From Clostridia bacterium (GTDB lineage: Bacteria > Bacillota > Clostridia > Oscillospirales > CAG-272), in contig JAFUOH010000006.1 in NCBI GenBank assembly GCA_017482055.1, positions 1 to 63,466 of the forward strand: a stretch of DNA of 63,466 nt. Direction: 5' to 3'. The notes beneath the pieces are model-generated. The model saw only the letters and a program-made list of their open reading frames with translations. It ran no database searches and had not been told where the DNA came from. The position numbers were made by a program, and so were the translations under genes. Shown piece after piece: positions 1-63,466 of the stretch (positions within the stretch are counted from its first letter, which is position 1; each line of letters opens with the position of its first letter).

Positions 1-78
1 GTGCTCATCAATGACCCGACAAAGGGGTATGGTATATTTATCGAAAATATGCTTGCAAAAGCAGAAAAAGTCCAATAA
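1..78 (+). CDS. C-terminal end of an unidentified protein
   Basis: Frame 1 is open from the window edge and ends with TAA at 76-78, giving 25 residues that finish ENMLAKAEKVQ. A clean intrinsic terminator follows immediately, so this is very probably the true 3' end of a gene that begins outside the window. The fragment is too short to assign a family. Confidence 0.6.
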   Translation: MLINDPTKGYGIFIENMLAKAEKVQ

Positions 79-149: not shown

Positions 150-362
150 TTAAAATTCGGGGATATCGTAAAAACCGAATACGCTTCTGTGATAGTCCCC
201 ATCCGCTTTGTTGAGGAATTGATGGTAGGTTTCTTTGGGAATTATCACGAGCTGAAACGGAGAGGGATACGCTTTTCCTGTATTGGCAACAAGACGTATA
301 GTGTTGGCGGTCTGCAGGTGCTTGACGTTGAGCTTGACGGTTGAAAACTCATTTTTCGACAT
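150..362 (-). CDS. Possible small hypothetical protein (70 aa)
   Basis: The product is MSKNEFSTVKLNVKHLQTAN onward and ends FGFYDIPEF. Its composition looks protein-like, but I recognise no family and see no Shine-Dalgarno sequence before the ATG. The start codon lies inside the 24-base element at 352-375 that is also found upstream of another gene, so the ATG may be incidental. No other gene occupies 121-351. Treat as tentative. Confidence 0.35.
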   Translation of the reverse strand: MSKNEFSTVKLNVKHLQTANTIRLVANTGKAYPSPFQLVIIPKETYHQFLNKADGDYHRSVFGFYDIPEF

Positions 363-375
363 ATTTCGAGGAAAA
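352..375 (+). promoter_or_regulatory. Spo0A-box-containing upstream element, copy 1
   Basis: The element begins TTTTTCGACA and ends CGAGGAAAA. TTCGACA at 355-361 is the exact reverse complement of the B. subtilis 0A box TGTCGAA. A degenerate second heptamer, TTCGAGG at 365-371, follows 10 bp later, as in tandem 0A boxes. A 23/24 identical copy lies at 5177-5200. Both copies end exactly 50 bases before the -35 box of a gene for a stand-alone Spo0A DNA-binding domain, in the same orientation relative to that gene. Function as a binding site is inferred. Confidence 0.6.
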
Positions 376-501: not shown

Positions 502-918
502 ATGACAGGAAATAATGACAAGGGTAACAAGGCCCCAAAACTGTATACTCAGAGTGAGCTTGATATAAAATTATTTAAAACACTTACAAAGCTTGGAATT
601 TCCGCGAATTTGAAGGGATTCAGATATCTAAACTCAGCTATTTCAGCCGTGTATTATGACCCGCAGGCGGGCTCGCATGTGGTGAGCGGTCTGTATAACC
701 GCTTAGCCCTTGAAAATCATACTACGCCCGAGTGTATCGAGCGTTCCATGCGAACTGCTCTTCACAGAGTCCAACGAACGGATAACAGGGACAATTTCTT
801 CAGCTTTTTCGGTGAAGATGCCGGCTTGACAACAAAGAAGTTCATCAATTCGATAGCTAAGAAGCTCAGAGAAGAAAGTGACGAGGAAAAGGATAACAAA
901 AATCGGACCGCAAAGTAA
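502..918 (+). CDS. Stand-alone Spo0A C-terminal-domain protein (paralogue 1)
   Basis: 138 aa. After about 22 leading residues the protein matches the Spo0A DNA-binding domain along its length: LTKLGISANLKGFRYL corresponds to the start of the domain, and CIERSMRTAL sits at the recognition helix (Spo0[11 protein letters not shown]). The contact-type Glu and both Arg are kept. No receiver domain or other partner domain is present. I chose ATG 502 because AAGGAG lies six bases upstream; an in-frame ATG at 469 lacks such a site. It is monocistronic between its own promoter and terminator. Probable DNA-binding regulator; targets unknown. The 0A box upstream suggests control by Spo0A or a paralogue. 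Confidence 0.85.
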   Translation: MTGNNDKGNKAPKLYTQSELDIKLFKTLTKLGISANLKGFRYLNSAISAVYYDPQAGSHVVSGLYNRLALENHTTPECIERSMRTALHRVQRTDNRDNFFSFFGEDAGLTTKKFINSIAKKLREESDEEKDNKNRTAK

Positions 919-936
919 TGCGATCCGATTTTTTTG
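901..936 (+). terminator. Intrinsic terminator overlapping the stop codon
   Basis: AATCGGACCGC at 901-911 pairs with GCGATCCGATT at 920-930, followed by a run of T. The TAA stop codon of the preceding gene lies in the loop. Confidence 0.85.
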
Positions 937-1055
937 TGAGGTTTATTAATACTCAAGCTCCATACCGTCGTATGCAATTTCAATTTAGTTAGGCTCATCA
1001 AGCTTTGAGGCAAACTTCTACGTTTGGGTTTTATTAAAATTTTACGATTTGGTGG

Positions 1056-1084
1056 TTGACTTTTGCTTAGCTGTATACTATAAT
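1056..1084 (+). promoter_or_regulatory. Sigma-A-type promoter
   Basis: -35 TTGACT at 1056-1061, 17-base spacer, -10 TATAAT at 1079-1084. It precedes the glycosidase-like gene by a roughly 125-base leader in which I recognise no riboswitch. The rest of 937-1217 holds nothing I can identify. Confidence 0.75.
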
Positions 1085-1217
1085 GTACCTGTAAGAATCC
1101 GCGTTATAGCATAATGACTCGGCGTTTACAAAAACGTATTGCAAAAATAATGTTTTGTGTAATACAAGCTCACATTGTGCAAATAACTGCGCCGCAGTTT
1201 AAGAAAGAGGTAGCTTA

Positions 1218-3146
1218 ATGGTAAAACTTGCGAAAAAACGCTCTGATTCGTTTTTCGGGCTTCACTTTGACTTCCATCCCACAGCCGATATAATAGTCGG
1301 CGACAATTTGCGCTATGATGTGATAGCAAAGCTGCTTGATGAAACCAAGCCCGACTATGTTCAGGTGGACACAAAGGGGCATCCCGGACTGTCCTCCTAT
1401 CCCACAAAGGTCGGTCATCCCGCACCGCTTATGATGGGCGATCCGCTTAAAATGTGGCGCGAGCTTACCGCCGAGCGTGGTATAGCGCTTTACGGTCACC
1501 ATTCGGGACTTTTCGATATGCGTCAGGCTAAAGATCACCCCGAGTGGGCGGTGGTTGACGAGAACGGCGTTACAAGCGACAGCTATATGTCCGTATTCGG
1601 AGAGTATCCCGAAAAATTCCTCATCCCGCAGTTAAAGGAGCTGGCGCTTGAATACAAGCTCGACGGCGCATGGGTAGACGGCGAATGCTGGGGCACCAAG
1701 CCCGACTATTCGGAAAACGCACAAAAGGCGTGGGCGAAGGTCTCGGGCACGCCAATTCCCAAGTCCGACGATCCCGATTATCCTAAATACCGTGAATTCC
1801 TGCGCGACGCTTTCAAGGCATATGTGGCAAATTACATAGCTGAAATAAAAAGGGCTGCTCCCGACTTCCAGATCACAAGCAATTGGATCTATTCACAGTA
1901 CATGCCCGAGAAGCCCGATGTTTCCGTTGACTTTTTGTCGGGCGACTATTCTCCCAACAACTCTGTCAACAGTGCCCGTATTCAAGGCCGTTACCTCGCA
2001 AACCAAGGACTTCCGTGGGATCTTATGGCGTGGGGGCACAACAGTATCGGTTCGTGGCTGACAAAAAACAGAAGCACCAAGGAGACCGTGCAGCACTGTC
2101 AGGAGGCGGCGTATATCATCTCTCAGGGCGGCGGCTTCCAGTTCTACAATTGGCAGTATGGCGGCGGCTCTACCGTCCAGGAATGGGCGATCCCCACATG
2201 GGCTAAGGTAGCGGAGTTCGTACGTGCACGTGAGCCCTTCTGCAAGGGCGCGAAGCCTTTGCCGCAGGTAGGTGTTTTCCTTTCAAGCGAGGGAAATAAA
2301 GCCGAGGGAAGCGGTGCAACGGCATATCCCGGCACCCGCACCAAGAACTCCGCAAACGGACTCATCCATGTTGCGCTTGACTGCGGTTATGCCACCGAGC
2401 TTCTTGAGACCCACAACCTTGATGACCGCGATATTTCCGAATATGGCGCTATTGTTGTCGCACAGAGCACATGGTTTGACCCCGAGACCAAATCAAAGCT
2501 CATGGCGTACGCCGAGAACGGCGGAAGCCTTATCATCGCGTCGCCCGTCAGCGCAAGGCTGTTTGGCTTCGGTACCTCCGACCCTGTTGATAAACTCATT
2601 CATATAAGCGACGGCGAGTCTGTTGCCCCCATGGAAGCAACCGTGTCCGATCTCGCCGCAATAAGCGGAGCAAAGGTATGCGGCACATATTATCTTGATA
2701 ACTATATGGGCAACGGTCCCTACACGGCGGCACTGTCTTACATGGCGGGCAAGGGCAAAGTAGTTGTCATGGGCATTGACTACGGCTGCGCATATTCCAA
2801 GAACCGCACTACCTGTTCGAAGAATTTCTTCAAGAAAATAATGGCGGATGTATTCAAAAAGCCGCTCGTTACCGTTGAGGGCTCAAGCTTTGTTGAGCTC
2901 GGTATCACCCGCCGCGACAACATGATATATATCCATCTGCTCAACTACGCGGGACCTCATGACGTTTCCTCGATCCGCAGCTACAATGAAATACCAAAGC
3001 TGGGACCGCTGACGGTGAAGATATCCGATGCGATCTCTCCTAAGTCTGTGACAATAGAGCCCGTCCACAAGGCGTGGAAAGGCAATCCGCACAGGATCAG
3101 GATCGAAAGCCTCGATGTACACACGATCATTGCCATAGAGCTGTAA
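1218..3146 (+). CDS. Putative glycoside hydrolase, TIM barrel plus GATase-like domain
   Basis: 642 aa, no signal peptide, so probably cytoplasmic. Residues 10-350 read as a (beta/alpha)8 glycosidase fold, with HFDFHP near the N-terminus, DGAWVDGECWG near residue 150 and SGDYSPNNS near 240. Residues about 355-560 resemble the glutamine-amidotransferase-like trimerisation region found behind such barrels (VGVFLSSEGN, MAYAENGGSLIIASPV). The whole looks like the GHL6/GH29-neighbourhood families, but I cannot name the substrate. RBS AAAGAGG precedes ATG 1218. It is a single gene between its own promoter and terminator. Confidence 0.7.
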   Translation: MVKLAKKRSDSFFGLHFDFHPTADIIVGDNLRYDVIAKLLDETKPDYVQVDTKGHPGLSSYPTKVGHPAPLMMGDPLKMWRELTAERGIALYGHHSGLFDMRQAKDHPEWAVVDENGVTSDSYMSVFGEYPEKFLIPQLKELALEYKLDGAWVDGECWGTKPDYSENAQKAWAKVSGTPIPKSDDPDYPKYREFLRDAFKAYVANYIAEIKRAAPDFQITSNWIYSQYMPEKPDVSVDFLSGDYSPNNSVNSARIQGRYLANQGLPWDLMAWGHNSIGSWLTKNRSTKETVQHCQEAAYIISQGGGFQFYNWQYGGGSTVQEWAIPTWAKVAEFVRAREPFCKGAKPLPQVGVFLSSEGNKAEGSGATAYPGTRTKNSANGLIHVALDCGYATELLETHNLDDRDISEYGAIVVAQSTWFDPETKSKLMAYAENGGSLIIASPVSARLFGFGTSDPVDKLIHISDGESVAPMEATVSDLAAISGAKVCGTYYLDNYMGNGPYTAALSYMAGKGKVVVMGIDYGCAYSKNRTTCSKNFFKKIMADVFKKPLVTVEGSSFVELGITRRDNMIYIHLLNYAGPHDVSSIRSYNEIPKLGPLTVKISDAISPKSVTIEPVHKAWKGNPHRIRIESLDVHTIIAIEL

Positions 3147-3153
3147 AAACAAA

Positions 3154-3197
3154 AAATGTCGGACATTCGCAAAAAGGATGTCCGACATTTATGTTTT
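3154..3197 (+). terminator. Intrinsic terminator
   Basis: A 13-bp perfect stem, AAATGTCGGACAT at 3154-3166 with ATGTCCGACATTT at 3178-3190, followed by a T-rich stretch. Confidence 0.85.
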
Positions 3198-3314
3198 TGT
3201 GCGATATGCATACGATGTCGGAAATCGCGGTTTACGGCTGCTTGTCATATCTCCCATATACGACATAATATGCGATGAGGGGGCAAAAGCTCTCTCGGAA
3301 CTCGGAGGTATGAA

Positions 3315-4169
3315 ATGGCAATCTTTACAAACCAAGCCACGCTGACCTACAACAATGGGGTCACAAACTCAAACGTGGTAACGGGCGAGATAGTGGAGGT
3401 GCTGTCGGCTGAAAAAACAGCCGTTTTGGGCACTTACACCACAGGCGATACAGTGACATACGTCATCAGTATCGTAAACTCGGGAACTGCTCCCTACACG
3501 GGACTTACTGTCACCGACAATCTCGGTGAATACCCTGTCGGCACGGGTACCGCCGTCCCGCTTGAATATATCGACGGCTCTCTGCTCTATTTTGTCAACG
3601 GTGTGCTTGCGGCGGCACCTGCGGCAGATGCGGGAGCACCTCTTGTTATTTCCGGTGTGTCTGTTCCCGCCGGAGGTAATGCGCTGCTTATTTACAAGGC
3701 ACGCATTACGGACGCGGCTCCGCTTAACGCAGAAAGCAGCATCACAAATGTCGCGGAGATATCGGGCGGCGGGCTTTCCACGCCGATAACCGTCACAGAG
3801 ACCGTCACAGCCGGAGACAGTGTGGAGCTGACCATAAGCAAGGCGCTCAGCCCCGAAACGGTGGTTGAAAACGGACAGCTCACCTACACCTTTGTGATTC
3901 GGAATGCCGGCAACACTCCTGCGGTTGCCGCCGATAATCTTACGGTGACCGACACCTTTGATCCGATTCTTGATCCCATCACGGTGCAGCTTGACGGCGT
4001 GACTCTTACAGAGGGTGTTGATTACACCTATGACACCGAAACGGGTGAATTTGCGACTGTTGAAGGCAGGATCACCGTACCTGCGGCGACTTATTCTCAG
4101 GACCCTGTGACCGGTGTGTGGACTGTTACACCCGGTGTTGCGGTGCTTCGTGTGATCGGAACGGTATAA
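3315..4169 (+). CDS. DUF11-repeat protein without secretion signal
   Basis: 284 aa, rich in Thr, Val, Ala and Gly with almost no Lys or Arg. Two beta-sandwich repeats of the DUF11 type are visible: VTYVISIVNSGTAPYTGLTV...DNLG (about 48-150) and LTYTFVIRNAGNTPAVAADN (about 185-284). DUF11 proteins are normally extracellular, but there is no signal peptide, membrane segment or LPXTG anchor. In sporulating Clostridia such signal-less proteins could be spore-surface layers made in the mother cell; that is inference. RBS CGGAGG precedes ATG 3315. A weak match to sporulation sigma sites is noted under findings. Confidence 0.75.
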   Translation: MAIFTNQATLTYNNGVTNSNVVTGEIVEVLSAEKTAVLGTYTTGDTVTYVISIVNSGTAPYTGLTVTDNLGEYPVGTGTAVPLEYIDGSLLYFVNGVLAAAPAADAGAPLVISGVSVPAGGNALLIYKARITDAAPLNAESSITNVAEISGGGLSTPITVTETVTAGDSVELTISKALSPETVVENGQLTYTFVIRNAGNTPAVAADNLTVTDTFDPILDPITVQLDGVTLTEGVDYTYDTETGEFATVEGRITVPAATYSQDPVTGVWTVTPGVAVLRVIGTV

Positions 4170-4178
4170 GCAAATATC

Positions 4179-4216
4179 AAAATATCACCGCACCATTTTG
4201 GCGCGGTGATATTTTA
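4179..4216. terminator. Bidirectional intrinsic terminator between convergent genes
   Basis: AAAATATCACCGC at 4179-4191 pairs with GCGGTGATATTTT at 4203-4215. It gives a T tract on both strands and serves the DUF11 gene (+) and the Spo0A-domain pair (-). Confidence 0.85.
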
Positions 4217-4227
4217 CATAAATCATT

Positions 4228-4614
4228 TTATGTTTCATGCAGGTGCTTTGCGATTGTGGAGATAAACTGCGCACAGGTTGGGCGATGGACCGTAACATCG
4301 TATCCGAAGTATTCCCGCAGCTCGGCGGTGTGACTGCTGCGGCAGGCGCTTTCGATGGCATGACGGCAATTGCGTTCTACATTGGCGGCGTTCGATGCGC
4401 GGCAGACGCGGGCGACTTGCGGATAGAGCGTTTTTGTTATATAGCACGTAATTTCGGGCGTGTGATATGTGAGTATGATCGAACGTCTGATATATTCATA
4501 GCCCTTACAGCTTGTGGGAACACCGAGCCCGATAAGAATCCTGGTGGTGCGTATATCAAGTGCTATATCATTTATATCATCGTAAGTTACGATCTCTTTG
4601 GAGGAATCGTTCAT
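4228..4614 (-). CDS. Stand-alone Spo0A C-terminal-domain protein (paralogue 2)
   Basis: 128 aa. It contains only the Spo0A DNA-binding domain: LIGLGVPTSCKGYEYIRRSI, then NVERNCRHAI at the recognition helix, and YFGYDVTVHRPTCAQFISTI near the end (Spo0A: LFGYTV...PTNSEFIA). Its ATG overlaps the TGA of paralogue 3 (ATGA at 4614-4611), so the two are translationally coupled and transcribed from the promoter at 5098-5126. ERNCR is shared with paralogue 3, pointing to a tandem duplication. Coupled synthesis raises the possibility of a heterodimer; this is inference. Confidence 0.85.
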   Translation of the reverse strand: MNDSSKEIVTYDDINDIALDIRTTRILIGLGVPTSCKGYEYIRRSIILTYHTPEITCYITKTLYPQVARVCRASNAANVERNCRHAIESACRSSHTAELREYFGYDVTVHRPTCAQFISTIAKHLHET

Positions 4615-5039
4615 GTTTTATCACCGCCTAATATGGAATTGGTGCTGACATTGATCAGATTGCGCCTGAGCTTGTCGGCGAGCAGCGCTACAAATTCGCG
4701 CACCGACGGAGCGTTGGAGTGTTCGTTGCAGGAGAAGTATGCCGCAAGCTTCAATGTGTCACACCTTTGCCATAACAGTTTTATAGCTGTACGGCAGTTT
4801 CGCTCTATACATGATACGGTCGTATTATTTTCAACAGCGATCTGACGGTACAGTCCGACGATCACATTTTGTATAGCTGACGGCTCCATATAAACAAGCT
4901 CTATTGCTCGGCACAGATATGAGAACCCCTTTAAGCGGCGCGGAACACCGAGCTCACTGATCAAAAGCTTGACCTGCCTCGTAAGCTCTTCACCGCTGTA
5001 CTCTGTAAATTCTGTTGGGATATCGTTATATGCGGACAT
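4611..5039 (-). CDS. Stand-alone Spo0A C-terminal-domain protein (paralogue 3)
   Basis: 142 aa. The N-terminal 20 residues are unique. Then come LLISELGVPRRLKGFSYLCR, CIERNCRTAI at the recognition helix and SVREFVALLADKLRR at the C-terminus, all aligning with the Spo0A DNA-binding domain. There is no receiver. RBS AGGAG lies seven bases before the ATG. It is the first gene of a two-gene unit with paralogue 2. The upstream region carries a consensus promoter and a perfect 0A box in the same geometry as paralogue 1. Confidence 0.85.
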   Translation of the reverse strand: MSAYNDIPTEFTEYSGEELTRQVKLLISELGVPRRLKGFSYLCRAIELVYMEPSAIQNVIVGLYRQIAVENNTTVSCIERNCRTAIKLLWQRCDTLKLAAYFSCNEHSNAPSVREFVALLADKLRRNLINVSTNSILGGDKT

Positions 5040-5097: not shown

Positions 5098-5126
5098 ATT
5101 ATACCACACTAATCGATTTGATTCAA
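5098..5126 (-). promoter_or_regulatory. Sigma-A-type promoter for the paralogue 3-2 pair
   Basis: Read on the minus strand: -35 TTGAAT (5126-5121), 17-base spacer, -10 TATAAT (5103-5098). The bases just before the -10 (GTGG) are identical to those before the -10 of paralogue 1. Confidence 0.8.
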
Positions 5127-5176: not shown

Positions 5177-5200
5177 TTTTCCTCGTAATATGTCGAAAAA
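5177..5200 (-). promoter_or_regulatory. Spo0A-box-containing upstream element, copy 2
   Basis: On the minus strand it begins TTTTTCGACA and ends CGAGGAAAA, with one internal difference from the copy at 352-375. On the plus strand the perfect 0A box TGTCGAA is at 5191-5197. Exactly 50 bases separate it from the -35 box at 5121-5126. It also lies 14 bases upstream of the -35 box of the divergent cysK promoter, so it could act on both. Confidence 0.6.
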
Positions 5201-5214
5201 GCTCCAAGCACTAC

Positions 5215-5243
5215 TTGACAATGAATCGGCGCAGTGATATAAT
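5215..5243 (+). promoter_or_regulatory. Consensus sigma-A promoter for cysK
   Basis: -35 TTGACA at 5215-5220, 17-base spacer, -10 TATAAT at 5238-5243. Both hexamers are perfect. Confidence 0.85.
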
Positions 5244-5304: not shown

Positions 5305-5325
5305 AAGCCGCAGTGCGGTTTTTTT
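5305..5325 (+). other. Terminator-like hairpin at the cysK translation start
   Basis: AAGCCGC at 5305-5311 and GCGGTTT at 5315-5321 form a 7-bp stem (one G-T pair) with loop AGT, followed by seven T. It overlaps the candidate SD and GTG start of cysK, about 60 bases after the promoter. It could attenuate transcription or mask initiation at the GTG. Confidence 0.45.
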
Positions 5326-6263
5326 ATGTGTATATGAATATCTTCAGAACTTTTGGCGAGCTTATTGGCAAGACACCTCTTTTTGAGACAGTGCATTATT
5401 CCGCCGAGCAGGAGCTCGGAGCAAGAATATTCGCAAAGCTTGAATATCTTAATCCTGCGGGAAGTGTTAAGGACAGAGCAGCTCTTTATATGATTGAAGA
5501 TGCCGAAAAAAACGGCAGATTAAAGCCGGGCGCGACCATCATCGAGCCTACCAGCGGAAATACCGGAATAGGACTTGCCGCAGTCGCCGCATCGAGAGGG
5601 TACAAGGTCATTCTGACGATGCCGGATACCATGAGTGTGGAACGCCGTACACTGCTTGCAGCCTATGGCGCCGAGCTTGTGCTCACCGAGGGAAAATATG
5701 GCATGGCGGGAGCAATTGAAAAGGCAAACGAGCTTGCCGAATCTATTCCCGACAGCATGATCGCAGGGCAGTTTGACAATCCTGCCAATCCGAGAGCACA
5801 TTATGAGACTACCGCTCCCGAAATTTGGGAAGATACGGACGGTAAAGTGGATATCTTTGTAGCGGGTGTAGGAACGGGAGGCACACTTACCGGTGTCGGC
5901 AGATATCTGAAGGAAAAAAATCCCGATATCAGGGTTGTTGCAGTGGAGCCGGCTTCTTCACCGCTGCTTTCCGAGGGAAAAGCAGGCGCACACGGTCTCC
6001 AGGGAATAGGCGCAAACTTTGTGCCGGGCATATTTGAGCGGAGTCTCTGCGATGAGATCGTCACGGTCACCGAGGATGCCGCCTATGACGCGAGCCGCGC
6101 GCTTGCAAGAAGCGAAGGCATCCTTGTTGGTATTTCCTCCGGAGCGGCGCTTCATGCCGCTACAGAGCTTGCACGGCTCCCGGAGAACACAAACAAAAAT
6201 ATAGTGGTTCTTCTCCCCGACACGGGCGACCGTTATTTGTCCACACCGCTGTTCGGCGAGTGA
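5313..6263 (+). CDS. cysK: Cysteine synthase (O-acetylserine sulfhydrylase)
   Basis: 316 aa. PLP-dependent; condenses O-acetylserine with sulfide to form cysteine. Visible motifs are GELIGKTPL near the N-terminus, the PLP lysine in NPAGSVKDR (Lys53), the SGNTG phosphate/substrate loop, GTGGTLTGVGRYLKE and the Ser-rich GISSGAA near the C-terminus. GTG 5313 has AAGGAA six bases upstream, but family alignment would also fit ATG 5334, which lacks an SD. No serine acetyltransferase gene is adjacent. It is a single gene with its own strong promoter. Confidence 0.93.
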   Translation: MRFFYVYMNIFRTFGELIGKTPLFETVHYSAEQELGARIFAKLEYLNPAGSVKDRAALYMIEDAEKNGRLKPGATIIEPTSGNTGIGLAAVAASRGYKVILTMPDTMSVERRTLLAAYGAELVLTEGKYGMAGAIEKANELAESIPDSMIAGQFDNPANPRAHYETTAPEIWEDTDGKVDIFVAGVGTGGTLTGVGRYLKEKNPDIRVVAVEPASSPLLSEGKAGAHGLQGIGANFVPGIFERSLCDEIVTVTEDAAYDASRALARSEGILVGISSGAALHAATELARLPENTNKNIVVLLPDTGDRYLSTPLFGE

Positions 6264-46853: not shown

Positions 46854-47246
46854 ATGTACAGTTATGAACTGCTTTATAAAAAAGAGCCTACCCTCGATGA
46901 GAGCATATTAAAGCTGCTTGAGGAAATGTCTGTACCCGGAAAGCTCAAGGGGCACAAGTATCTTGCGGCGGCAATACGTATAGCTGTAGACGAACCCGAA
47001 ACGGTATCTGCTGTGACAAAAATGATATATCCGCGCATTGCCGAGGCTTATGATACCAATGTTGCGTGTGTTGAAAGCGCGATTCGCACGGCTATAACCA
47101 AAGCGTGGTATATGGGTGACATGGCGCTGCAGTATGAGCTGTTCGGTCACACGGTGCGCTTTATGAGCGGCAGACCCGGCGAGGCTGAGTTTATCGCGAT
47201 ACTGGCGCAGCACTTGAGAACGGAAAGACAGCTTGGGAGGCACTAA
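46854..47246 (+). CDS. Stand-alone Spo0A C-terminal-domain protein (paralogue 4)
   Basis: 130 aa from ATG 46854 (CGGAG upstream); an in-frame alternative start at 46788 lies inside the promoter. EMSVPGKLKGHKYLAAAIRIAV, then CVESAIRTAITKAW at the recognition helix and PGEAEFIAILAQHLRTE. Where Spo0A and paralogues 1-3 have Glu-Arg in that helix, this one has Glu-Ser, so DNA specificity may differ. It directly precedes spo0A, separated by a terminator. Confidence 0.85.
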   Translation: MYSYELLYKKEPTLDESILKLLEEMSVPGKLKGHKYLAAAIRIAVDEPETVSAVTKMIYPRIAEAYDTNVACVESAIRTAITKAWYMGDMALQYELFGHTVRFMSGRPGEAEFIAILAQHLRTERQLGRH

Positions 47247-47520: not shown

Positions 47521-48351
47521 ATGATTACGGAAAAACAAAGCAGGCTTTTGGTTTGCGGTGCGGACACTGAAAGAAGAAGGGAAATGTCGTCCCTGCTTGA
47601 GCGGATCGGATTTGCGGCGGTGGACGAGTCCCGCGATGCTCATGAAACAGAGCGGCTGCTTTGCGAGCGGCAATATTCACTTGTGGTCTGTGACAGCTCG
47701 ATCGCAGGTGCTGAAGCCATGCAGCTTGCTTACAATGAGAGCAGGCGACATGACGGAGGTATGCGTTCCACGGTGTTTTTATTTATCGGAGAGCATAACT
47801 ACGAGGATGTTCTCCGCGAGGTATGCCTTATGACGGACACAAATTATCTTATCCGACCGTTTTCCATACCTGAATTCTGCGACGCAGTGTTCGGCGCGTT
47901 ATCGGGACGGCGGGGAATAGGTGAGGCTTCAACATCCGAAAGGCGCAGGAGCGCGGTGAGCGAAACGATATCGACGAGCTCCGCCGAAGCGCTTGCGGAT
48001 GAGCCGCTTGAAATGCAGATCACGACCATCCTCCATAATCTCGGAATCCCCGCACATATCAAGGGCTTTACTTATCTGCGCTGTGCAATCAGCATGACTG
48101 TTGCAGACCCCGATATGATAAACTACGTTACAAAATCTCTTTATCCCAGCGTGGCAAAAGTATATAACACCACGACCTCCCGCGTGGAACGCGCCATACG
48201 CCATGCCATAGAGGTGGCATGGGACAGAGGTGAGCTGGAAACGCTCAACCGCTATTTCGGCTACACCATCAGCCGTCAGCGCGGCAAGCCTACCAACAGC
48301 GAGTTTATCGCCATGATCTCGGACAAGCTGAGGCTTGGTGTGGGGATGTAA
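47521..48351 (+). CDS. spo0A: Spo0A with a degenerate receiver domain
   Basis: 276 aa. The C-terminal DNA-binding domain (about 163-274) is close to canonical Spo0[50 protein letters not shown]. The N-terminal receiver (5-125) is poor. A plausible phospho-acceptor Asp58 (YSLVVCDSS) and one acidic residue (Asp15) remain, but the switch Thr is Ile89 (VFLFIGEHN) and the invariant Lys of LKPF is Arg112 (IRPF). RBS AGGAGG. It is not beside spoIVB, its usual neighbour. Whether it is still phosphorylated is open. Confidence 0.88.
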
Positions 48352-63119: not shown

Positions 63120-63466
63120 GGGGGCGTAAAGGTTTCGACGGGGATTTTGACATACGGTAAGCGGGTAGAGACGCCTGATCTCTTTAAAATTGGCAATTTA
63201 AAATTAAACGCTAATAATACTGAATTAGCTGCTGCCTAAATGGCGGCTGTCCACCGGTTGAGTACTGCGGCTTCCGCTTGGGCATCATTCAGCAGTGAAC
63301 GTGAGCAGCCCTTTCGCACTTGAAGCTGCCATGCACTAAAGCGCTACCTCCTCGCGAGCCTGCCCATCGGCGCGCGCGGCAGGGAATCCCAATAGATTGG
63401 CTGCACCCGGAGAAAGCTGTATTGATGAGTTTTCGGACAGGGGTTCGATTCCCCTCGCCTCCACCA
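63120..63466 (+). ncRNA. ssrA: Transfer-messenger RNA
   Basis: It starts GGGGGCG and contains GTTTCGACGGGG of the tRNA-like 5' end. The 3' end GGTTCGATTCCCCTCGCCTCCACCA supplies the T arm, acceptor strand and encoded CCA. The tag frame is 63192-63239 (GGC resume codon to TAA), giving GNLKLNANNTELAAA. With SmpB it frees stalled ribosomes and marks nascent chains. The 3' end coincides with the window end. A hairpin CGCCGC/GCGGCG (63097-63112) lies just upstream; no separate promoter is evident. Confidence 0.95.

Follow-up and report, generated by a model that had tools for sequence, protein, structure and literature searches.

In the textbook account, endospore formation is gated by the phosphorylation of Spo0A. 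In a stretch of 63,466 nucleotides from a Clostridia bacterium (Oscillospirales, CAG-272; contig JAFUOH010000006.1 of GenBank assembly GCA_017482055.1), hereafter called the window, four genes (502-918, 4228-4614, 4611-5039 and 46854-47246) encode genuine stand-alone Spo0A effector domains from which the receiver is absent. We hold it somewhat better than even (a probability of roughly 0.55) that they are phosphorylation-free regulators of the Spo0A family that are governed by the level of their own expression and form part of the 0A network, the two overlapping genes making a heteromer. DNA binding, the control by expression, the heteromer and the effect on sporulation are what we infer from sequence. 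Labels starting with G, C and L denote genomes, contigs and loci, respectively.

Four stand-alone Spo0A effector domains

The Spo0A_C profile of Pfam (PF08769; 104 positions, cut-off 25 bits) matches all four proteins at 68-102 bits over 101-104 of its positions, and it is the only Pfam profile to pass its cut-off in them. A match to the receiver profile (Response_reg) is absent in four of four in the same scan, which places them outside the response regulators. The effector domains of Spo0A in the PDB (1lq1 and 1fc3) match even the weakest of the four, 502-918, at 2e-11 and 9e-11. TIGR02875, the Spo0A equivalog profile, scores them at 51, 80.8, 82.6 and 106.1 bits, below a curated cut-off of 200 bits that is set for the whole protein.

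A first-pass annotation, made from the letters of this DNA, had described four receiver-less Spo0A proteins here and named a different helix-turn-helix family as the outcome that would overturn the idea. The four open reading frames (ORFs) exist where it put them, 128-142 amino acids (aa) long and with Spo0A_C as their only domain; the four profile matches above the cut-off, together with the TIGR02875 and PDB comparisons, rule out another helix-turn-helix family. As to strands, 502-918 and 46854-47246 are on the plus strand, while the other two had to be corrected to the minus strand, plus-strand translation of their spans giving other readings. There, 4611-5039 precedes 4228-4614 and the 4-base ATGA overlap at their junction is borne out.

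The source is a metagenome-assembled genome (MAG; label G000) that is 54% complete, and its Spo0A_C copy numbers are, therefore, lower bounds. Of the six matches that a whole-genome search yielded, four are those of the window, one is the full-length Spo0A (47521-48351) and one is a fifth stand-alone, located on contig C25. The features discussed are listed in Table 1.

Table 1. Positions of the genes, boxes and candidate promoters in the window, and of longer Spo0A_C paralogs at other loci of the genus (last three rows)
Position	Strand	Feature	Remarks
1..78	+	spoIVB, last 25 codons and stop (contig start)	frame 1 VLINDPTKGYGIFIENML..., like the C-terminus of G002 SpoIVB; stop at 76-78
355..363	-	TATGTCGAA, exact 7-base 0A-box core, upstream of 502	within block TTTTTCGAC
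502..918	+	stand-alone Spo0A_C gene, 138 aa	PF08769 68.2 bits; ortholog L039:5782-6198
1218..3146	+	putative glycoside hydrolase-like protein, 642 aa	downstream of 502; 67% identity in G002; Pfam matches just under cut-offs
4228..4614	-	stand-alone Spo0A_C gene, 128 aa, second of the overlapping pair	PF08769 93.3 bits; ortholog L038:6059-6445
4611..5039	-	stand-alone Spo0A_C gene, 142 aa, first of the overlapping pair	PF08769 91.1 bits; ortholog L038:6442-6858
5098..5126	-	candidate promoter of the pair, TTGAAT-17-TATAAT	read by eye; TTGAAA-17-TATAAT in G002
5189..5197	+	TATGTCGAA, 0A box between the pair and cysK	block TGTCGAAAAAG identical in G002 (there TTTGTCGAA)
5215..5243	+	candidate cysK-side promoter, TTGACA-17-TATAAT	read by eye; G002 keeps both hexamers
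5313..6263	+	cysteine synthase-like gene (cysK; presumed name)	divergent neighbour of the pair; 75% identity in G002
46854..47246	+	stand-alone Spo0A_C gene, 130 aa, 274 bp upstream of spo0A	PF08769 101.5 bits; ortholog L037:6138-6527
47521..48351	+	full-length Spo0A, 276 aa, degraded receiver	Spo0A_C 152.6 bits; Response_reg 22.0 bits
L044 3721-4461		Spo0A_C paralog of the genus, 246-268 aa class	
L045 4018-4797		Spo0A_C paralog of the genus, 246-268 aa class	
L047 1618-2424		Spo0A_C paralog of the genus, 246-268 aa class	

Conservation in a second species

Orthologs of all five stand-alones, those of the window and the fifth copy, are present in another species of the same genus, G002 (MAG RGIG4141, obtained from the colon of a roe deer); the G002 stretch around spo0A was found letter for letter in an RGIG4141 contig by a genome contig scan that returned this single locus. 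Each of the window four retains at least one neighbour gene there. The counterpart of 46854-47246 likewise stands before spo0A, with BlaI/M56 neighbours; that of 502-918 lies beside the gene for the 642-aa protein; and the pair is kept as a pair, its ATGA overlap present in both species, beside cysK, a gene that we take from its sequence to be cysteine synthase-like.

The orthologs share 56% (46854), 42% (4611), 55% (4228), 40% (502) and 49% (fifth copy) identity between G000 and G002, as compared to 79% for Spo0A. Codon positions differ between them at a rate of 0.63-0.75 at the third and 0.25-0.49 at the first and second positions. The ratio of non-synonymous to synonymous divergence (dN/dS) is 0.18 for 46854, 0.077 for Spo0A and 0.073 for cysK, dS being saturated for the other four stand-alones. 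By these identities, the codon-position pattern and dN/dS where it can be measured, the stand-alone proteins evolve fast yet under constraint.

Decay is the first alternative to be weighed, namely that the genes are spo0A duplicates that have lost the receiver and now drift. Their ortholog dN exceeds that of Spo0A two- to fourfold, and most of them are missing from four other members of the genus; yet all five frames have stayed open, with domains of full length, in two species between which their identity is down to 40-56%, codon positions and measurable dN/dS indicate constraint, and the overlap of the pair is conserved. The first-pass annotation had allowed for random decayed copies without conservation. 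The conservation in G002 and the codon-position pattern led us to reject them, and we consider decay very improbable.

Phylogeny of the effector domains

In a tree built from 103 effector domains (LG+G4 over 106 columns, with 1000 ultrafast bootstraps; support given as UFBoot), the G000 and G002 orthologs pair up with UFBoot 100 in five of five cases. The lineages of 502 and 4611 are sisters (UFBoot 98) and join 46854 (UFBoot 81), while 4228 clusters with a stand-alone from G003 (UFBoot 85). On this tree, the overlapping pair, thus, represents two distinct lineages and not a recent tandem duplication, which fits, without proving, a heteromer.

All four window domains fall inside a 23-member clade (UFBoot 76) that spans more than one order of Clostridia. 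Of the 44 cellular domains whose ORFs do not exceed 200 aa, 20 belong to it (19 of 40 when ORFs cut by contig ends are excluded). Its remaining members are L108, one of the 15 viral domains, and the longer ORFs L051 (217 aa) and L052 (244 aa), in which the domain begins at residue 55-60, leaving no space for a receiver; the other 41 cellular ORFs of more than 225 aa lie outside. Since deep support in the tree is moderate or low and 24 of the 44 stand-alones fall outside the clade, receiver-free forms probably arose more than once.

Recognition residues and 0A boxes

In the numbering of Bacillus subtilis Spo0A, core residues of the recognition helix that we take to contact the bases are kept: E213 and R217 in all of the window four and R214 in three (S in 46854). 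In a set of 57 domains from ORFs no longer than 200 aa, cellular as well as viral and a few of them cut by contig ends, E213 occurs in 52, R214 in 42 and R217 in 53.

The core of the 0A box is TGTCGAA, and the isolated DNA-binding domain of Spo0A is reported to bind real targets without phosphorylation (PMC3485338). An exact core occurs upstream of two of the three transcription units of the window; of these cores, only that beside the pair has an exact counterpart in G002. In eight regions totalling 1,922 bp, those upstream of 502, the pair, 46854 and spo0A in the two species, TGTCGAA occurs four times against 0.30 expected (window 502 and pair; G002 pair and spo0A), and 1 of 2000 dinucleotide shuffles reached four. 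The block TTTTTCGAC upstream of 502 is shared with G002, but without an exact core in that species; in the window, this box extends over the start of a 70-aa ORF on the minus strand that has no Pfam match. Between the pair and cysK, the cysK-side candidate promoter begins 17 bp downstream of the 0A core.

The full-length Spo0A of the genus

The receiver of the full-length Spo0A could be judged in five of the six genomes of the genus, G005, with only a Spo0A piece at a contig end, being left out. Response_reg scores are 22.0 (window), 18.2, 25.1, 26.5 and 26.8 bits, all below the cut-off of 30.2 bits, as compared to 61.0-66.2 bits in three control genera of the family. We take the canonical phosphosite to consist of an acidic pocket, D56, T/S86 and K108. 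In the window protein D56 is retained, T86 is replaced by G and K108 by R, and the acidic pocket is ambiguous by two residues, a combination that departs from the canonical Spo0A phosphosite. Throughout the five, T/S86 has become G and K108 has become R, R, A, R and R, while among 30 Spo0A relatives from other genera G86 never occurs and K108 is intact in 26 (two R, two M). By these scores and substitutions, the Spo0A receiver of the genus is degraded. Loss of both D10 and D11 across the genus was also considered and then withdrawn, an alternative alignment showing both in G003 and leaving the other members ambiguous by two residues.

The picture in the first-pass annotation, of stand-alones working beside a normal phosphorylation-gated Spo0A, is not supported for this genus, its full Spo0A having itself a degraded receiver. 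Spore formation is probably retained, as SpoIVA is present in six of the six genomes and SpoIIGA was found in four, a search within the genus not finding it in G000 and G001.

How the stand-alones may act

We propose that this chromosomal family of receiver-free Spo0A effector domains would act as phosphorylation-independent transcription factors that bind 0A-like boxes. The amount made of each, set by promoters of which some have 0A boxes of their own, would exert the control that is otherwise exerted by the receiver phosphate. The stand-alones would share sites with the full-length Spo0A of the genus, or modulate them, and the overlapping pair would most likely constitute a heteromer of two different effector domains.

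Several observations weigh against this proposal. R211 is lost in all of the window four and H218 in three of them, because of which the DNA site that they recognise may not be the classical box. The eight upstream regions in which TGTCGAA was counted were picked after the boxes had been seen, and the orthologous regions of two species are not independent. The relaxed core TGNCGAA is only weakly enriched in them (4 against 1.25 expected; 46 of 1000 shuffles reach 4) and the window as a whole has no excess of TGTCGAA (10 against 9.9 expected). In both species, the DNA upstream of 46854 lacks an exact box, as does that upstream of 502 in G002 and that upstream of spo0A in the window. The box between the pair and cysK is nearer to the promoter of cysK; it may belong to this gene, to the pair or to both. 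As for the receiver, D56 is retained in four of the five genus proteins (E in G002), both pocket acids are intact in G003, with the other genus members ambiguous at the pocket, and position 56 is N in 4 of the 30 relatives from other genera, so that receiver changes are not unique to the genus; judged from these residues, the full Spo0A may still be phosphorylated. Finally, one sister species only carries the whole stand-alone set.

The altered residues bear on a second explanation, in which the genes are local regulators with altered specificity, 502 controlling the gene of the 642-aa protein and the pair controlling cysK and itself, with little role in sporulation. Recognition-helix positions 210, 211, 218 and 222 are unlike Spo0A in most of the window four, neighbour genes are conserved with each of them, and their orthologs evolve faster than Spo0A (40-56% against 79% identity). 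On the other side, E213 and R217 are kept, exact 0A cores lie upstream of two transcription units of the window, and one stand-alone stands directly upstream of spo0A in both species. We view such a local role as possible, albeit rather unlikely.

A special case overlapping with the proposed regulators is that of dominant-negative titrators, which would occupy 0A boxes without activating and so delay sporulation. It has the same basis as the proposal itself, and a mode of action independent of host signals has been put forward for the phage copies (PMC10294663), but no sequence sign of a specific loss of activation surfaces is seen in the window four, all of which keep F236; we consider it doubtful. 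Equally tentative is an extension of our proposal by which sporulation of the whole genus would be freed from phosphorylation: Spo0A would have a pseudo-receiver and form a mix of homo- and heteromers with at least five receiver-free domains, the genes would be cross-regulated via 0A boxes, and the window domains would belong to one old receiver-free lineage present in more than one order of Clostridia.

Distribution in Clostridia

The other four species of the genus are without most of the stand-alones. G003 has one (L042). G001, G004 and G005 each have a second Spo0A_C paralog of 246-268 aa, the N-terminal half of which is without a Response_reg match in three of three, and G001 and G005 also carry Spo0A_C pieces at contig ends. 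Among 96 other relatives searched, stand-alone ORFs away from contig ends were identified in seven (G002, G003, G058, G064, G071, G087 and G096), those of G058 measuring 217 and 244 aa with likely later starts.

In a class-wide sample of 242 other Clostridia genomes, five of which overlap with the set of relatives, at least two Spo0A_C matches occur in 75. The assumption of the first-pass annotation that Spo0A is normally single-copy, therefore, stands for most sampled genomes of the family and fails for the class. About two thirds of the extra matches, counted from the listed frames, are in frames long enough for two domains. A stand-alone ORF of less than 200 aa away from contig ends was confirmed in at least 16 of the 242, a lower bound as the full listing covered just those genomes that have at least two matches; the count leaves out short pieces (L107) and ORFs that run off a contig end (L056, L089, L094 and L095). 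In two genomes of another family, G266 and G330, the best-scoring Spo0A_C protein has 172 and 177 aa, respectively (L082 2676-3194; L084 1920-2453), and a domain scan of the former, the one of the two examined, gave no receiver match; the main Spo0A itself may be receiver-free in both. We also observed that five genomes of one genus, of 0.8-0.9 Mb each, contain two stand-alone Spo0A_C ORFs and one longer Spo0A (L068-L075, L092 and L093).

The fifth copy, phages and mobile elements

The fifth stand-alone has a viral relative in IMG/VR (L108; UFBoot 100). Its G002 ortholog lies less than 7 kb from phage tail and baseplate genes, while the G000 copy is not in an evident prophage. It is the last gene in a run of sigma factor, DUF4367 protein (anti-sigma-like by its position), 137-aa secreted-looking protein and Spo0A_C (L050 6293-8516, minus strand). 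A similar gene order is seen in the IMG/VR contig (L108 4263-6399, plus strand), where a reverse transcriptase and a NAMPT/NAPRTase gene are present as well, and in G058 (L051 1869-4899, plus strand), with the first three genes only weakly similar.

Truncated Spo0A genes have been reported from gut phages (PMC10294663) and PF08769 is described as enriched in the mobile elements of gut Firmicutes (PMC6907783), by which the stand-alones could be phage-derived or mobile genes, domesticated or in transit. The receiver-free phrog_24603 of PHROGs (111 positions) is matched by the window four at 1e-12 or better, and complete stand-alone ORFs of 116-195 aa occur in 12 of the 32 IMG/VR loci retrieved with the window Spo0A domain; the viral relative of the fifth copy and the tail and baseplate genes near its G002 ortholog point the same way. 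However, scans of viral contigs with the ortholog alignments of the window four, using two short peptide patterns each, gave no relative, L108 is the only one of the 15 viral domains inside the 23-member clade, and the window four keep their chromosomal neighbours in both species, which sets them apart from a phage or prophage location. We regard a phage or mobile origin of these genes as improbable.

The phage and plasmid protein searches were queried with 4611-5039, 46854-47246, the fifth copy and the G002 copy next to spo0A. The plasmid matches, four of four, are ORFs of 264-275 aa. GenBank phage records were not used as phage evidence: 6 of 12 were fetched, all of them flagged UNVERIFIED and with ORFs of 248-286 aa, and spoIVB is in the stretch upstream in four of the six. 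In these four human fecal records named 'Bacteriophage sp.' (L061, L062, L063 and L065), spoIVB lies ahead of a full-length Spo0A, an order known from bacterial chromosomes, and the records may be bacterial contamination.

The contig start and other features of the window

The window opens on the end of spoIVB; positions 193-210 of PF05580 match C23:1-54 at 24.0 bits, below the cut-off of 25, and 502-918 begins 423 bp downstream of the spoIVB end. It may occupy an ancestral spoIVB-spo0A slot. With some 0.8-1.1 kb examined, spoIVB was found upstream of spo0A at 6 of 8 loci from other families of the order and at none of 22 from other genera of the family. None of 30 family loci (L147-L176) has a Spo0A_C ORF downstream of spoIVB within flanks of at most 1.5 kb, some of them far shorter, which would not reveal even the arrangement of G002 itself.

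The last ~36 codons of spoIVB recur in several family members as short copies, about 1-4 kb apart and with ordinary genes between them: there are eight extra matches in G012 and arrays in G043, G039 and G037 (loci L177, L178, L180 and L183). The window start and the end of contig C24 (L144/L185) break inside spoIVB at the same codon. From this pattern, the 3' end of spoIVB has the look of a site at which gene cassettes integrate and accumulate. At its other end, the window contains a tmRNA gene with the tag ANNTELAAA (63120-63466, plus strand).

Relation to known systems and significance

Receiver-less Spo0A proteins and extra spo0A copies are already in print, and a receiver-free Spo0A is, in itself, not new. 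The nearest case is that of the truncated spo0A genes of human-gut phages (mBio 2023), which share with the window genes an effector domain without a receiver and were proposed to act free of host phosphorylation (PMC10294663). In contrast to these, the window genes are chromosomal, occur in place in two species and include an overlapping pair and a copy beside spo0A; 14 of the 15 viral domains, moreover, lie outside their clade. The Spo0A of Bacillus and Clostridioides has the same domain, of which an artificial receiver-free version is reported to bind 0A boxes without phosphorylation (PMC3485338), whereas the receiver-free forms of the window are separate natural genes with residues altered at 211 and mostly at 210 and 218. 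Clostridium thermocellum has a second, distantly related spo0A, Cthe_3087, beside the main one; by description it resembles the stand-alones as an extra distant spo0A, the available portions of the reports not stating a loss of its receiver (PMC3804516, PMC4236516). Aspartate-less receivers offer a parallel to the receiver degeneration in the Spo0A of the genus (PMC4395418), which differs from them in mostly keeping the aspartate (four of five) while losing T/S86 and K108.

In the open-access literature, judged by title and abstract, we found no publication on conserved chromosomal families of receiver-free Spo0A. The pair has a likeness, in working principle only, to BldM and WhiI of Streptomyces, which we take to belong to a protein family different from that of Spo0A. 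Those two are atypical response regulators that, as reported, form a heterodimer controlling development (PMC4125116).

The stand-alones would make natural receiver-free Spo0A proteins available for testing, and they are a cellular counterpart of the truncated Spo0A genes of phages. Spore control in the genus may not depend on the usual phosphate signal, and, if our reading is true, the sporulation gate can come under the control of gene dosage and the choice of partner.

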